Below are positions 33,014-63,461 of a stretch of DNA of 64,000 nucleotides, in pieces (within the stretch, counting starts at the first letter, position 1; every line of letters begins with the position of its first letter). The stretch covers positions 930,001 through 994,000 of the forward strand of contig NZ_CP019914.1 in assembly GCF_002214805.1 (NCBI RefSeq), given 5' to 3'. A model generated the notes under the pieces. It did no database searches and was not told the DNA's origin. It worked only from the letters and a program-made list of their open reading frames with translations. Position numbers and translations under genes: made by a program. Origin of the DNA: Brachyspira hampsonii. Its GTDB lineage: Bacteria; Spirochaetota; Brachyspiria; Brachyspirales; Brachyspiraceae.

Positions 33014-33269
33014 ACTCCCTCCTATTTTTACTTTATATTAGAATAATTTAAGATTTTTTTATAAAAAGTCAATATTTTTTTGTAAATTATTTTTAATAAA
33101 GAGTTTTTTTGTATACAAATTTCATATAAAAAATTATATAAAATTACTAAAATATAATATTATTAAAAAAATTGTAAAAAAATGATGTTATTCATAAACA
33201 ATATTTTACACAAAAAAAATCTATAAGTTTTAATTACTGCTAAATGATTTTAATAAATAGGAGAAGCGT

Positions 33270-57808: not shown

Positions 57809-58993
57809 ATGGCAGAGATAAAAAATTATTATTTCTCTTCTGAATCGGTAACAGAAGGCCATCCTGATAAGATCTGCGATGCTGTAAGCGATGCAGTCTT
57901 AGACGAATGTTTAAAACAAGATCCAAATTCAAGAGTAGCTTGCGAAACTTTAGCAAAAACAGGTATGATTTTTATTGCTGGAGAGATAACTACAAAAGCT
58001 AAATTGGATTATCAAAAAATCGCCAGAGATACCGTAAGGCGAATAGGTTACACAAGCAGCGAAATGGGTTTTGACGCTGATACTTGTGCGGTAATGGAGG
58101 CTATTGCTGAGCAGTCTCCTGATATAGATATGGGTGTTAGTGCCGGTAAGGGATTATTTAATTCTGAATCATCAAATGTTTCTGAAGGTGCAGGCGACCA
58201 AGGTATAATGTTCGGTTATGCTATAAATGAAACTGAAACTTTTATGCCTTTAACTATATATTTAGCTCATAGATTGGCAGAGCGTTTGGCTAAAGTTAGA
58301 AAAGACAAAATAGTTGACTATTTAAGACCAGACGGCAAAAGTCAGGTTACTGTTGAATATAAAGACGGTAAAGCCGCTAGAATAGAAGCCGTTGTTATTT
58401 CCACTCAGCATGCCGCAGGCGTTGATCACAAACAAATAGAAGCTGACATAAAAAAACATGTTATTAGTGAAATATGTCCTGCTAATATGCTTGATGAAAA
58501 CACTAAATACTACATTAACCCAACAGGTTCATTTGTAGTAGGCGGACCTATGGGCGACTGCGGATTAACAGGAAGAAAAATTATCGTAGACAGCTACGGC
58601 GGACATGGTGCACATGGCGGCGGAGCTTTCTCTGGTAAAGACCCTACAAAAGTAGACAGAAGTGCTTGCTATATGGCTAGATATGTTGCTAAAAATATAG
58701 TAGCTTCCGGCATAGCTGACAGAGCTTTAGTTCAGTTTGCTTATGCTATAGGAGTACCTGAGCCTTTATCTGTATATGTTAATACTTTCGGTACAGCAAA
58801 AGTTCATGATGAAGTATTGGCTAATATAGTTACTAAAGAGCTTGATTTAACTCCTGCTGGTATAATCAAAAGATTAGATTTGAGAAGACCTATTTATGAA
58901 AAAACTACAGCTTACGGACATTTCGGAAGAGAGCTTCCAGAGTTCACTTGGGAGAAAACAGATATAAAAGATTTGTTTGCTAATGCTAAATAA
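57809..58993 (+). CDS. metK: S-adenosylmethionine synthase
   Basis: A 394-residue enzyme joining methionine and ATP to make SAM. Signatures: [16 protein letters not shown] near the start (ATP and Mg binding), [12 protein letters not shown], and [16 protein letters not shown]. Length matches the family. It has a good promoter and terminator of its own, so it is expressed alone. Confidence 0.98.
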
Positions 58994-59088: not shown

Positions 59089-59979
59089 ATGAGAAAATTA
59101 AGAAACGATTTTATGAAAGATCCAGATTTAATAAAAGTAGTTGATATAGTAAAAAAAGATGATACTTTGTTATTTTGTATAAGAGAAAATAATATTAATG
59201 TTTATTATAGAGGAGTAAGTATTTTAAAATTTGAAGATGGTAAAGGAATAGATAAATCAAATTATAATAAAGTATATCTTTCAAATTCTGAATTAAATAC
59301 ATCTAATGTAGATGAATGGATTAAAAATATTGTAGCATTAAAGAATTTAGTTGATACACAAATAAGTAACTTCCAAACAGAAAAAGAATTTCAGCAATTG
59401 GTGGTTAGAACAAATACAAGTTCTAAATTGGCATTGGAGTCGGATTATTATTTTGTTGATATTGAAAGTATAGATCCTGATATGAAAGAATGCCGATTTG
59501 ATATAGTTGGTTTTAAATGGACTAATAGAAAAAATATTAGTAAATGCCAATTGTGTATCGTAGAAATGAAATATGGTAAAGATGCTTTTGATAATATGAA
59601 TAAACATTTTAGTGATATCTTATATTTAGACGGACATTCTCATCTTGATGATTTAAAAATACAAACTATAAGTCAATTTAGACAATTAATAGAATTAGGA
59701 TTAATAAATTTAAGAAGCGGAGCAGATAAAAATGCAGATGATATTAAAGAATTAGATAAAAAAGCAGAATGTATTATTTTGTTTGCCGATTTGAATCCTA
59801 AAAGTGAGCTTACTTATAGAATATATAAAGAAGCTATAAAAACACAATCTCAATCAAAAAATATAGAAATAAAATTTGCAGTATCTTCATTTATGGGATA
59901 TGCATTATTCAATCAATTTATATTAGACTTGGATCAATTTAAAGACTTCTGCACCAGACTAAAAATAAAAAATTTCTAA
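59089..59979 (+). CDS. Hypothetical protein with PD-(D/E)XK-like nuclease pattern
   Basis: A 296-residue soluble protein. In the second half the phrase RFDIVGFKW is followed, after a stretch of about 15 residues, by QLCIVEMKYG: D138, then E159-x-K161. A hydrophobic strand with Asp, then a strand with ExK, is the core signature of PD-(D/E)XK nucleases. The N-terminal part (residues 1-110) is not recognised. It may be a defence or repair nuclease, or an inactive relative; the assignment is from motif shape only. It is flanked downstream by a strong terminator and a MITE-like element. Confidence 0.55.
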   Translation: MRKLRNDFMKDPDLIKVVDIVKKDDTLLFCIRENNINVYYRGVSILKFEDGKGIDKSNYNKVYLSNSELNTSNVDEWIKNIVALKNLVDTQISNFQTEKEFQQLVVRTNTSSKLALESDYYFVDIESIDPDMKECRFDIVGFKWTNRKNISKCQLCIVEMKYGKDAFDNMNKHFSDILYLDGHSHLDDLKIQTISQFRQLIELGLINLRSGADKNADDIKELDKKAECIILFADLNPKSELTYRIYKEAIKTQSQSKNIEIKFAVSSFMGYALFNQFILDLDQFKDFCTRLKIKNF

Positions 59980-59985
59980 ATTATA

Positions 59986-60033
59986 AAAAGCATACTAATA
60001 TTTATAATGCATATTAGTATGCTTTTATTTTAT
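59986..60033 (+). terminator. Rho-independent terminator
   Basis: A perfect 16-bp stem (59986-60001 with 60011-60026) with a 9-nt loop and a T-rich tail. Confidence 0.85.
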
Positions 60034-60036
60034 TAA

Positions 60037-60249
60037 TAGACTTGTTTCAAAACTACTTGACAAGATTATATATATGAATTTTAGTAATTTATTAATTATA
60101 AAAACAATGTTTTATATATTGTATAACTTATTATTCTAGTATATAAATATGCAGTCCTTCGCCTACCGACCGCAGAGCGTGGCACAACTGTGTACTTCGT
60201 AGGACTAGTCCACACAAATTTATAAAAAATTAGTTTTAAAACAAGTCTA
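60037..60249. mobile_element. MITE-like element with terminal inverted repeats and GC-rich core
   Basis: Left end TAGACTTGTTTCAAAACTA (60037-60055) and right end TAGTTTTAAAACAAGTCTA (60231-60249) are inverted repeats of 19 bp with one mismatch, both ending in TA. This fits a TA target duplication of the kind left by IS630/Tc1-type transposases. There is no transposase gene inside. The core (60151-60215) is far richer in G+C than the genome and contains several small inverted repeats (CCTAC/GTAGG, CACA/TGTG), so it could fold as RNA or DNA structure. Confidence 0.7.
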
Positions 60250-60326
60250 ATATAATACTCACACTACTATTTTTAATATTTTAATATATAATACTTTTCA
60301 CTAATAAAACAAAAGGCTTAAATAAA

Positions 60327-61394
60327 ATGATACTTAAAGAACTTACAATTCGTTCTTTTAGAAATTACAATGAAAATTTATTTGAATTCTCTGACAAAAT
60401 AAATGTGCTTTACGGACATAACGGCTGCGGTAAAACTAATATACTTGAAGCAATATATATGCTTGGAAACGGAGTATCATTTAGAACAAGACTTGACAGA
60501 GAGCTTGTACAAAATGGAAGTGATAATTATTTTTTGAGAGGCATTTTCAGAGAAGATGAATTAAATTATGACACTAATATAGAAATAGCATACCAAAAAA
60601 AAGTAAAAAAGGTATTTATAGATAAAAAAGAAGTGTCTTCAAGAAAAGATTTAATAGGAAGAATACTTTATGTTATATTTCTGCCAAATGATACTGACTT
60701 GGTAATAGCAGAGCCTAAATTAAGAAGAGATTATTTTAACATGCTAATATCAACAATATCATCAGAATATTTGCTTGCATTAATCAAATATAATAAACTC
60801 TTAAAAATGAGAAATATTTGTATCACTACAAAACCTAATGAAGCATACATTTATAATAATGATATAGCCAAACTTTCCATTTATATAGCTGGTGAAAATA
60901 AAAAATATTCTTCTCTTTTAGAAGATAAAATGAATGAAATCTATAAAAATATTTTTAATAATGAAAACCCTTATGCTATAAAATATCAGTCTACCATAGA
61001 AGACATATCAAATGAAAATGAATACATAAAAAAACTAGAAAGCACTTTAAACGAACAAATAAGAATGCGTACCACATATTTTGGGATACATAGAGCAGAG
61101 TATCAATTCTTTTACAAAGATTCGCTTTCAAAAAAATTCTCATCTCAGGGCGAGAAAAGAATGTTTACTCTTATAATGAAACTTGCAAGTGAAAAAATAT
61201 TATCAGAATACAGAAAAAAATCCCCTATTCTGCTTATTGATGATGCTATGCTTGAGCTTGATAATACAAGACGAGATAATATACTTGAATACATAAAAAC
61301 ATTAGGACAGGTATTTATTACCGTTACAGAAAAAGAGAAAGTGAAAAACTTTGAAAACGGAAAAGTTTTTGATATACCAAATATAAGAATGTAA
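60327..61394 (+). CDS. recF: DNA replication and repair protein RecF
   Basis: A 355-residue SMC-like ATPase that helps load RecA at gaps. Walker A is GHNGCGKTN (about residues 31-39), the signature is SSQGEKRMFTLIMKLA and Walker B ILLIDDAMLELD. Length matches the family. In most bacteria recF sits beside dnaN and gyrB near the origin; here it stands alone in an accessory-looking area next to a MITE-like element. It ends close to a DUF285 fragment. Confidence 0.95.
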   Translation: MILKELTIRSFRNYNENLFEFSDKINVLYGHNGCGKTNILEAIYMLGNGVSFRTRLDRELVQNGSDNYFLRGIFREDELNYDTNIEIAYQKKVKKVFIDKKEVSSRKDLIGRILYVIFLPNDTDLVIAEPKLRRDYFNMLISTISSEYLLALIKYNKLLKMRNICITTKPNEAYIYNNDIAKLSIYIAGENKKYSSLLEDKMNEIYKNIFNNENPYAIKYQSTIEDISNENEYIKKLESTLNEQIRMRTTYFGIHRAEYQFFYKDSLSKKFSSQGEKRMFTLIMKLASEKILSEYRKKSPILLIDDAMLELDNTRRDNILEYIKTLGQVFITVTEKEKVKNFENGKVFDIPNIRM

Positions 61395-61642: not shown

Positions 61643-62152
61643 TTATAATATTAGAGGATTTTTGGATGAACATATTATTTTATTTCCATTAGATCGTCTT
61701 TTATCATTATTTGAAACAACAATAACATAATAAATTAAATTAAACATATTCTTAGGTTTTATTTTAGATTTATCATACAAAATTTTTGCTAATTTTTTTG
61801 ATTTATTTTCTATACCATGAGGAATTTTATTTTTTTCTTTACTAACTATATAAGTCTTTAATTCTTTAGTATCTATTAAATGTTTTAACTTAACATTATT
61901 TGAAATATTTTTAATCGTTTCTATAATTTGAATATATGCTTTATCTATTTTTTGACCTTTTAATTCTATAAAATTAGAAACTTCTTTTTCTCTATATGCT
62001 AAATAATCACATTTTTTTACATCATCACTAAATATACCATTATCGACTTTTATAATAAAAATATCATTATCTGCTTTTATATAAAGTTTTGTTTGTGCAT
62101 CTGACAAAGTTTTTATATCATCTTTTTTTAATAACTCATAATTACTGTTCAT
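61643..62152 (-). CDS. Small predicted PD-(D/E)XK-type nuclease, partner of the ATPase
   Basis: A 169-residue soluble protein. CDYLAYREKEVSNFIELKG gives D49, then E63-x-K65, with a hydrophobic strand before each, followed by a helix (KAYIQIIETIKN). That is the core of the restriction-endonuclease fold. The remainder is Lys-rich and may bind nucleic acid (KSKIKPKNMF). The gene overlaps the upstream ATPase gene by 11 bp, so both are made together. No family name can be given; the assignment is from motif shape and gene pairing. Confidence 0.6.
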   Translation of the reverse strand: MNSNYELLKKDDIKTLSDAQTKLYIKADNDIFIIKVDNGIFSDDVKKCDYLAYREKEVSNFIELKGQKIDKAYIQIIETIKNISNNVKLKHLIDTKELKTYIVSKEKNKIPHGIENKSKKLAKILYDKSKIKPKNMFNLIYYVIVVSNNDKRRSNGNKIICSSKNPLIL

Positions 62153-63434
62153 TATTTAATTCCATATCAAATAATTTAGTATATGTTTCATTAATAGTAT
62201 TAGATATATCATCTATTTCTTCGCAGTTAATTTCATTTTCTTCATTAATAAGATTTGTATATCTAAAATCATTTAAATATAATTTAAAAGCATTTATTTC
62301 ATTAGGATTAATATATGAATATTCCCCCACAATATTATTAATTTTTTCAATTTTTTCTTTATTGTTTTTATAATTTTCTTTTAATTTTCCAGCATACAGT
62401 AAATTATTTGCACTTGTCAATATATAAGGACTATGAGTTGTAATCAAAATATTACTATTGGTTATATTCATAAAATTAACAATGAAGTCTATAATTTCTT
62501 TTTGCATATTAGGATATAAATGGGCTTCTGGTTCTTCTATTATAACAAAAATATTTTTTTTATTAAGCCATATTATACCTAATAAAACATTTAAAAGCCA
62601 CAGTATTTCCTGCTGTCCAGACGATATTTTATCTACAGGTATTTTTTTATTAGTATTATCCAATTTTATATATCCAAACTTATCATCACAAAAATACTGC
62701 CCCCCCATATATTTTTCTATTTTTTTATTCATTTCATTTAAAATTATTTTTTTGTCATCATCATTGACATTTTTTACAAAATTTCTAACTCCATCTTTAA
62801 ATAAGAACTCTATTTTTTCAACAAGTGTAAGAAAAGGATAAAATATAAAATCTATAGTATTATAATCCAATCTAGTTCTTTGATTATTCAATAATGCTAT
62901 AGAACTTCTTGAGGCTGGTATATAATAAGTTATTAATTCATTTTCAAAAAAATCATTTATTTCTTTACCTATTCCTCTTTCAAAAATATCTTCAAACCTT
63001 ACCACACTATTAACATTTAAATATTCCCCAAAAAGTCTTTTTATATCTATTTCTAATTTATTAAAAAATATTATTATATTCTCACTATAATTAATATCTA
63101 GATTATTATTTTTTTTTGTAATTTCTATATAAGTATTATATTTGTATACATATTTTAAATATAAATCATTATCTATATTCTCCAATTTCCCAAATATACT
63201 TATAAAAAAATCTTTTATTATATTATAATATATTTCTTTTATCCTGTATTGTATTTTATTTTTATAAGCAAATATATAAAATCTTATTTGAGTATTTATT
63301 TCTTTGAAGAAAAATATTGCTTTACTTATTGTGCTTTTTCCTGAAGATTGTTCGCCTATAATCAAATTAAATCTATTAATTTCCATTTCAAAATCTTTTA
63401 CTACAAGCAAATTCTTAATAATTATTTTCTGCAT
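62142..63434 (-). CDS. AAA/ABC-type ATPase (AAA_15/AAA_21-like, OLD-related)
   Basis: A 430-residue SMC/ABC-like ATPase. Walker A GEQSSGKST (residues 27-35), ABC signature ISSGQQE, Walker B VIIEEPEAHLYP (with two Glu), and the H-loop ITTHSPYIL. The middle region (residues ~90-260) is a helical insertion. No TOPRIM domain is attached, which separates it from OLD nucleases. The start is ATG 63434 with GGAG five nt upstream; a longer ATG at 63452 has no such site. Its product probably gates the small nuclease encoded by the overlapping gene, as in other ATPase-nuclease defence pairs. Confidence 0.85.
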   Translation of the reverse strand: MQKIIIKNLLVVKDFEMEINRFNLIIGEQSSGKSTISKAIFFFKEINTQIRFYIFAYKNKIQYRIKEIYYNIIKDFFISIFGKLENIDNDLYLKYVYKYNTYIEITKKNNNLDINYSENIIIFFNKLEIDIKRLFGEYLNVNSVVRFEDIFERGIGKEINDFFENELITYYIPASRSSIALLNNQRTRLDYNTIDFIFYPFLTLVEKIEFLFKDGVRNFVKNVNDDDKKIILNEMNKKIEKYMGGQYFCDDKFGYIKLDNTNKKIPVDKISSGQQEILWLLNVLLGIIWLNKKNIFVIIEEPEAHLYPNMQKEIIDFIVNFMNITNSNILITTHSPYILTSANNLLYAGKLKENYKNNKEKIEKINNIVGEYSYINPNEINAFKLYLNDFRYTNLINEENEINCEEIDDISNTINETYTKLFDMELNNEQ

Positions 63435-63461
63435 ATTATCTCCATTAATCATATAAAAACT

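Follow-up and report, generated by a model that had tools for sequence, protein, structure and literature searches.

What is the 213-nt element with inverted ends and a GC-rich centre that lies upstream of a recF-like gene in a Brachyspira chromosome, where does it come from, and how did its core arise? We examined it in a window of 64,000 nucleotides (C1:930001-994000 of the 3.19 Mb Brachyspira genome referred to here as G000). The stretch at 60037-60249 is a MITE, in itself an element of an ordinary kind but from an unreported lineage. We consider it probable that it derives from an IS5-family insertion sequence (IS), and that its core was built by double-hairpin units added at fixed sites.

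The element and its setting

The first-pass annotation had described 19-bp inverted ends finishing in TA, a GC-rich centre and a strong terminator in front, and in all these respects it was right. The ends (60037-60055 against the reverse complement of 60231-60249) read TAGACTTGTTTCAAAACTA on the left and, as reverse complement, TAGACTTGTTTTAAAACTA on the right, with a single mismatch, and the arms can be extended to 25 nt with an 88% match. The centre, 60151-60215, has 58% GC as compared with 26.6% for the window and 27% for the genome, and among all 65-nt stretches in the window about 1 in 12,800 reaches this value. The terminator is a hairpin with 16-bp arms at 59986-60026. There is no ORF of at least 60 aa within the 213 nt, and the GAC...GTC termini are bounded by a 5-bp direct repeat, TAATA, at 60034-60038 and 60248-60252. 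The features are the following.

60034-60038, no strand: left copy of the target duplication, TAATA, with the ANT core at 60035-60037 (sequence; empty-site comparison of sister copies)
60037-60055, plus strand: left terminal inverted repeat (TIR), its start identical to the left ends of the autonomous IS
60037-60149, plus strand: conserved, AT-rich left portion of the element; copies are about 75-90% identical
60150-60159, plus strand: conserved core entry TGCAGTCCTT, the left flank of insertion site A
60160-60179, plus strand: degenerate unit remnants at site A, CGCC... and a half-unit CGC-aga-GCG at 60171-60179 (sequence; comparison with intact units)
60183-60201, plus strand: double-hairpin unit CAC-aact-GTG TAC-ttc-GTA, related to CAC-gact-GTG TGC-ttc-GCA
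60202-60230, plus strand: right part GGACTAGTCC..., which belongs to one of the two kinds of right end and runs into the right TIR
60231-60249, minus strand: right terminal inverted repeat
60248-60252, no strand: right copy of the target duplication, TAATA (sequence)
33174-33201, minus strand: empty site, in the window, of a MITE present at the orthologous place in the B. hampsonii comparison genome

The gene starting downstream of the element at 60327 is named recF from a reading of its predicted protein, which is conserved across the genus. A metK-like gene (57809-58993) precedes the MITE, and between the two lies a 296-aa ORF (59089-59979, plus strand) with no Pfam or PADLOC match; several relatives have other genes, or no gene at all, between metK and recF. 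Farther downstream, on the minus strand, 62142-63452 encodes an AAA_15/AAA_21 ATPase with best PADLOC matches to AriA and related defence ATPases, and is overlapped by a 169-aa ORF (61643-62152) with no Pfam or PADLOC match. The two genes possibly form a two-gene defence system.

A MITE family across the genus

The proposal of a multicopy, non-autonomous inverted-repeat element was confirmed by a DNA search of the window's own genome, which contains about 40 copies, most of them with about 130 nt of the left side in common, at 75-88% identity. Matches occur in 25 of 26 Brachyspira genomes (none in G001), with 38-64 each in G004, G005, G007, G009, G015 and G018. Given such repetition in its own genome and throughout the genus, we reject a chance origin of the element. 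When aligned, the copies agree in their inverted ends and in an AT-rich left part that is conserved. The right end comes in two kinds, and the core varies greatly in length; complete copies measure about 150 to 411 nt, with a median of about 240. High copy number without a transposase of its own is as expected of an IS5-family MITE. One copy, at about 3176 kb in G000 (L026, 1504-1768), appears to have inserted inside the left part of another.

Open-access literature searches on Brachyspira returned no mention of MITEs or of repeats like these, an absence that is itself weak evidence. One Brachyspira species had been reported to be free of insertion sequences; the genus carries a large IS5-derived MITE family.

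An autonomous relative of the IS5 family

The first-pass annotation also anticipated an autonomous relative with the same ends, and such a relative exists as a multicopy IS in G011. In G000, the remnant of an ORF (71 aa) is preserved within one copy (L013/L062). Its sequence pointed to G011, in which an open frame of 192 aa terminates at the right inverted repeat. This frame matches PF01609 and PF13359 (DDE_Tnp_1, 5.7e-20; DDE_Tnp_4, 8.2e-19) as well as the NCBIfam IS5 family NF033581 (4e-28). The G011 assembly has 14 left and 13 right IS ends, which nearly all coincide with contig breaks and begin TAGACTTGTTTCAAAA. This end is found at 28 exact places, mostly 128 or 247 nt from a contig edge, as expected if an IS present in many copies had interrupted the assembly; the two ends of the IS were joined by inference from these two classes of contig edge, not read on one contig. 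On the left side the IS ends have the sequence TAGACTTGTTTCAAAAGTACTTGACAA, which many MITE copies share and from which the window copy departs at one base; the match to the MITE extends across about 28 nt. The family thus has inverted ends in common with an IS5-family element (NF033581/PF13359), as IS5-family MITEs do.

Elsewhere in the genus the transposase is present as degenerate pieces or not at all, so that the MITEs look stranded in most species, including that of the window. Remnants of this kind lie beside other ORFs in two places. In G000 (L062 1-2101, C1:83700-85800), two adjoining IS5-family transposase remnants lie beside a cytidylyltransferase-like ORF; tandem copies of the 5-bp motif TGGTC close this ORF and are possibly a phase-variable tail. 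In G011 (L107), integrase-type transposase ORFs at 280-1191 and 1894-2823 stand on either side of an IS5-family remnant; these two ORFs have a nearly identical middle stretch in common, and G011 seems rich in insertion sequences.

The element of the window would then descend by deletion from an IS5-family IS that has ISL2-like ends and duplicates ANT within TANTA. For MITEs, transposition by a transposase supplied in trans and working on shared ends is an established mechanism, and the IS transposase would have mobilised this copy in the same manner, inserting it upstream of recF. It would now be stranded in a genome that keeps only remnants of that transposase.

Target site and empty sites

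The first-pass annotation had taken the terminal TA as a duplicated target and the insertion as being of the Tc1/mariner/IS630 type. The element does start and finish with TA, and its target is AT-rich, but the transposase with the same ends is of the IS5 family and the empty sites do not fit a TA-only duplication. Neither that duplication nor an IS630 transposase relative was found, and we give an IS630-type origin next to no weight. The data point instead to an ANT-type duplication within a TANTA target. In 48 of 58 good copies the same base precedes the left TA and follows the right TA, as compared with 26.8 expected (0 of 20,000 shuffles).

The same annotation had foreseen insertion polymorphism, and clean empty sites are indeed found. 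Copy L008 of G000 is missing from both the B. hampsonii comparison genome and G004, and copies L015 and L019 from the former; the window has the reciprocal case at 33174-33201. In each of these comparisons the empty site lacks one base relative to the joined flanks, which fits an ANT duplication inside TANTA and not a TA-only duplication. Clean empty sites with a short target duplication are, again, in keeping with an IS5-family MITE. Since the ends are symmetric, the TANTA data are compatible with readings of 1, 3 (ANT) and 5 bp. We take the 3-bp ANT duplication to be a feature of the ISL2 subgroup of IS5, and the subgroup naming of this IS rests on it. The window copy's own locus in the B. 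hampsonii comparison genome reads TTAATATAATACTC, as predicted, on the right side, which is the side that counts, as the sequence further left is non-homologous. L015 and G014 (L042) have the MITE at one common site with different right ends.

Double-hairpin units in the core

The small inverted repeats noted earlier in the GC-rich centre are real: the window copy contains a single intact double-hairpin unit (60183-60201) and remnants of others. Cores differ between copies by discrete 18-20-nt GC-rich blocks of this architecture, among them CGCC-gca-GGCG TAC-ttc-GTA, CAC-gact-GTG TGC-ttc-GCA, TGCC-gaa-GGCA CGC-aga-GCG, CACC-aaa-GGTG GAC-ttc-GTC and CGC-gact-GCG GGC-tgt-GCC. Between the window's unit and the second of these, the change from TGC/GCA to TAC/GTA is compensatory.

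A grammar of stem 3-4, loop 3-5, stem 3, loop 3 and a minimum GC of 50% has 69 matches in 80 cores, against a mean of 2.7 (maximum 6) in dinucleotide shuffles; as the grammar was read from the same copies, this contrast shows that the pattern is real, not how general it is. The window's unit, with 47% GC, falls under the filter of this count, and several cores are degenerate and do not parse into units. In 25 distinct 20-nt unit variants, mostly cut out by their flanks and not by pairing, 97% of stem cells are paired, and slid structures fail. Two-sided stem changes number 32 in this set (shuffle mean 9.4; 0 of 500 shuffles reach 32), a count that leans somewhat towards structure because the nested variants were picked by eye.

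The units occupy a few fixed sites in a MITE core that, when empty, reads GCAGTCCTTTTGCTTCTTTG... Site A (GCAGTYYTT_TGSTTCT) holds a single T in 58 of 89 cores, and nearly all the others have 19, 20, 35, 38 or 57 nt. At site B, T is found in 27 of 48 cores, and the remainder have 20 to 37 nt, or 38, 57 and 75 where site A is also filled. Site E has G in 23 of 33 cores (19-20 nt in the remainder), site C has one A or C in 39 of 79, and site P, which belongs to another repeat backbone, has either T or a 20-nt unit. From these net lengths, most units replace one nucleotide, and those of the CGC-aga-GCG type two. The fillings of 38, 57 and 75 nt are nested stacks of units, up to four deep, as in L193:

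CGCC-[TGCC-ga[CACC-[TGCC-tta-GGCA CGC-ttc-GCG]a-GGTG GAC-ttc-GTC]-GGCA CGC-aca-GCG]a-GGCG TAC-ttc-GTA

No target duplication accompanies the units. Precise placement, nesting within one another and a short GC-rich hairpin form with compensatory variation are all traits that they have in common with SDRs and double-hairpin elements.

The unit pattern CGCCGNAGGCGTACTTCGTA is practically confined to the genus. Among genomes of 84,980 species it was found in 53 stretches, 52 from Brachyspira and one a lone Rhizobium match. Allowing two mismatches, there are 32 in the B. hampsonii comparison genome and 3 each in G000 and G009, with 0 for the reversed control. By pattern-based sorting, 36 of 57 exact matches lie in this MITE and 21 elsewhere, 20 of the latter in other Brachyspira repeat backbones or too worn to sort. 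In 375 kb around the matches, 122 of 138 grammar units fall outside ORFs of at least 90 aa, though such ORFs cover 73% of the sequence. Units are seen in other GC-rich backbones of several Brachyspira genomes (L281-L333), for example ...CTTGCACTTT[unit]TGGTTCTTT...GGGAAAAAGAAC, and the same set includes a MITE-like repeat with ends TAGACCTGTTGCAATTTTG that also carries them.

How the units may have spread

We infer that units were inserted to give the filled states, rather than excised to give the empty ones, and that they spread as mini mobile elements. The ancestral MITE core would have been short, with GC-rich units of 18-20 nt (stem 3-4 and loop 3-4, then stem 3 and loop 3) added at fixed sites, each usually replacing one nucleotide (two where units of the CGC-aga-GCG type nest) without target duplication, and later units often sitting in the first loop of an earlier one. 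The spread most likely took place as single-stranded hairpins, either captured or copied through template-switching during replication or repair. Loops and short T- or G-rich stalls could have served as capture points, and homologous exchange between cores may have been an accessory.

A bolder proposal, which we make tentatively and with less than even confidence, is that the units are mobile elements in the true sense and belong with the smallest known. Each would replace one nucleotide, frequently one in a hairpin loop, through an undescribed hairpin-based copying or capture, and they would spread without Y1 transposases and, in the MITE-rich genomes, without reverse transcriptases. The Y1 transposase PF01797 was found in 0 of 26 Brachyspira genomes, with 5 of 14 control genomes positive. 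This bears directly on the idea that the units are REP-like palindromes spread by RAYT or another transposase of the IS200/IS605 Y1 type. Short GC-rich hairpins, mostly extragenic and without target duplication, are what such a system would leave, but given the lack of PF01797 throughout the genus we regard it as very improbable. The reverse transcriptase PF00078 is absent in G000, G004, G005, G007, G009, G015 and G018 and present in 7 other genomes, so an RNA route could have operated in ancestors.

A doubtful but more serious alternative is that the units do not move by themselves, being old modules of MITE cores. Gene conversion or homologous recombination would have shuffled them between copies, and transposition of the MITEs would have raised their number. 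Units do recur at the same few sites, most copies lie within MITE-like repeats, and sites A and P both have CTTT[unit]TG(C/G)TTCT around the unit, so that exchange between these two backbones is possible. Shuffling accounts poorly, however, for units nested in each other's loops to a depth of four with changing partners, or for the same unit at sites A and B, where the common flanks are just T before and TG after. It also has to account for nearly identical backbones that differ by units, such as L190 and L191 (97.5-100% identity for such backbones). On a tree of the left backbone, unit states at three sites change 11, 7 and 11 times, a result that falls short of proof, the 118-nt tree being weakly resolved. 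Counting against insertion, the genomes yielded no orthologous pair of otherwise intact MITEs of which one has a unit and the other lacks it, and the old shared copies L014, L021 and L002 have diverged cores.

The first-pass annotation had suggested a functional RNA or a protein-binding block. On that account the core would be a selected structured RNA or protein-binding array, and the units its variants. Compensatory changes do preserve the hairpins, and both strands of the element out-fold dinucleotide shuffles (z of -3.2 and -3.4). Yet the number of units varies from none to eight in closely related elements, complete copies without units are common, and an Rfam scan of the element gave sub-threshold chance matches only, with no fitting family. 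Covariation is also expected if DNA structure was needed for spread. A selected function is thus unlikely, and what is seen is a stack of inserts that varies in number and kind.

Comparison with known systems

How very small hairpin repeats (SDRs, DHEs, GC clusters) spread is unsettled, and both RNA intermediates and DNA transposition have been proposed. Brachyspira offers tens of copies at a few fixed sites of one MITE backbone, with empty states of one nucleotide and nested stacks that record the order of insertion. With such sites, states and stacks in MITE-rich genomes that have no recognised reverse transcriptase or Y1 transposase, the standard mechanisms become directly testable.

The MITE itself resembles other IS5-family (ISL2-like) MITEs in having ends in common with an IS5-family element, an AT-rich target, a short duplication and high copy number without transposase in most genomes; it differs in its variable, GC-rich core of nested double hairpins. 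Such a core is of a rare and poorly explained kind and, as far as we could check, the first in a spirochaete.

The closest known counterparts of the units are cyanobacterial SDRs and mitochondrial double-hairpin elements. The SDRs of Nostoc and its relatives, in the work of Elhai and colleagues in 2008, are reportedly of about 21-27 nt with a common hairpin structure that shows compensatory changes, and are said to be embedded in minitransposons and nested in their own copies. The likeness lies in the size of about 20 nt, the compensatory fold, the residence in minitransposons, the self-nesting and the precise insertion. The Brachyspira units differ in phylum and sequence, in their strict double-hairpin grammar, in replacing one nucleotide and in having no HIP1-type target. 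PMC4390886 cites a precise insertion of SDR5 into HIP1, and the 2008 work is cited in both PMC3116915 and PMC4390886.

The double-hairpin elements (DHE) of Allomyces mitochondria lack duplications, and an RNA route has been proposed for them (PMC2800124); the GC clusters of yeast merge into larger ones and shuffle (PMC4478555). Like the units, both are GC-rich hairpins in AT-rich genomes, whereas the units are chromosomal and bacterial, uniform at 18-20 nt, nested to a depth of four and borne by a MITE; yeast GC clusters, in addition, have AG/ACT duplications and the units none. REP/REPIN sequences with their RAYT are also short GC-rich extragenic palindromes of bacteria, but they are paired inverted REPs, whereas the Brachyspira units are two adjacent mini-hairpins in a genus without Y1 transposase.
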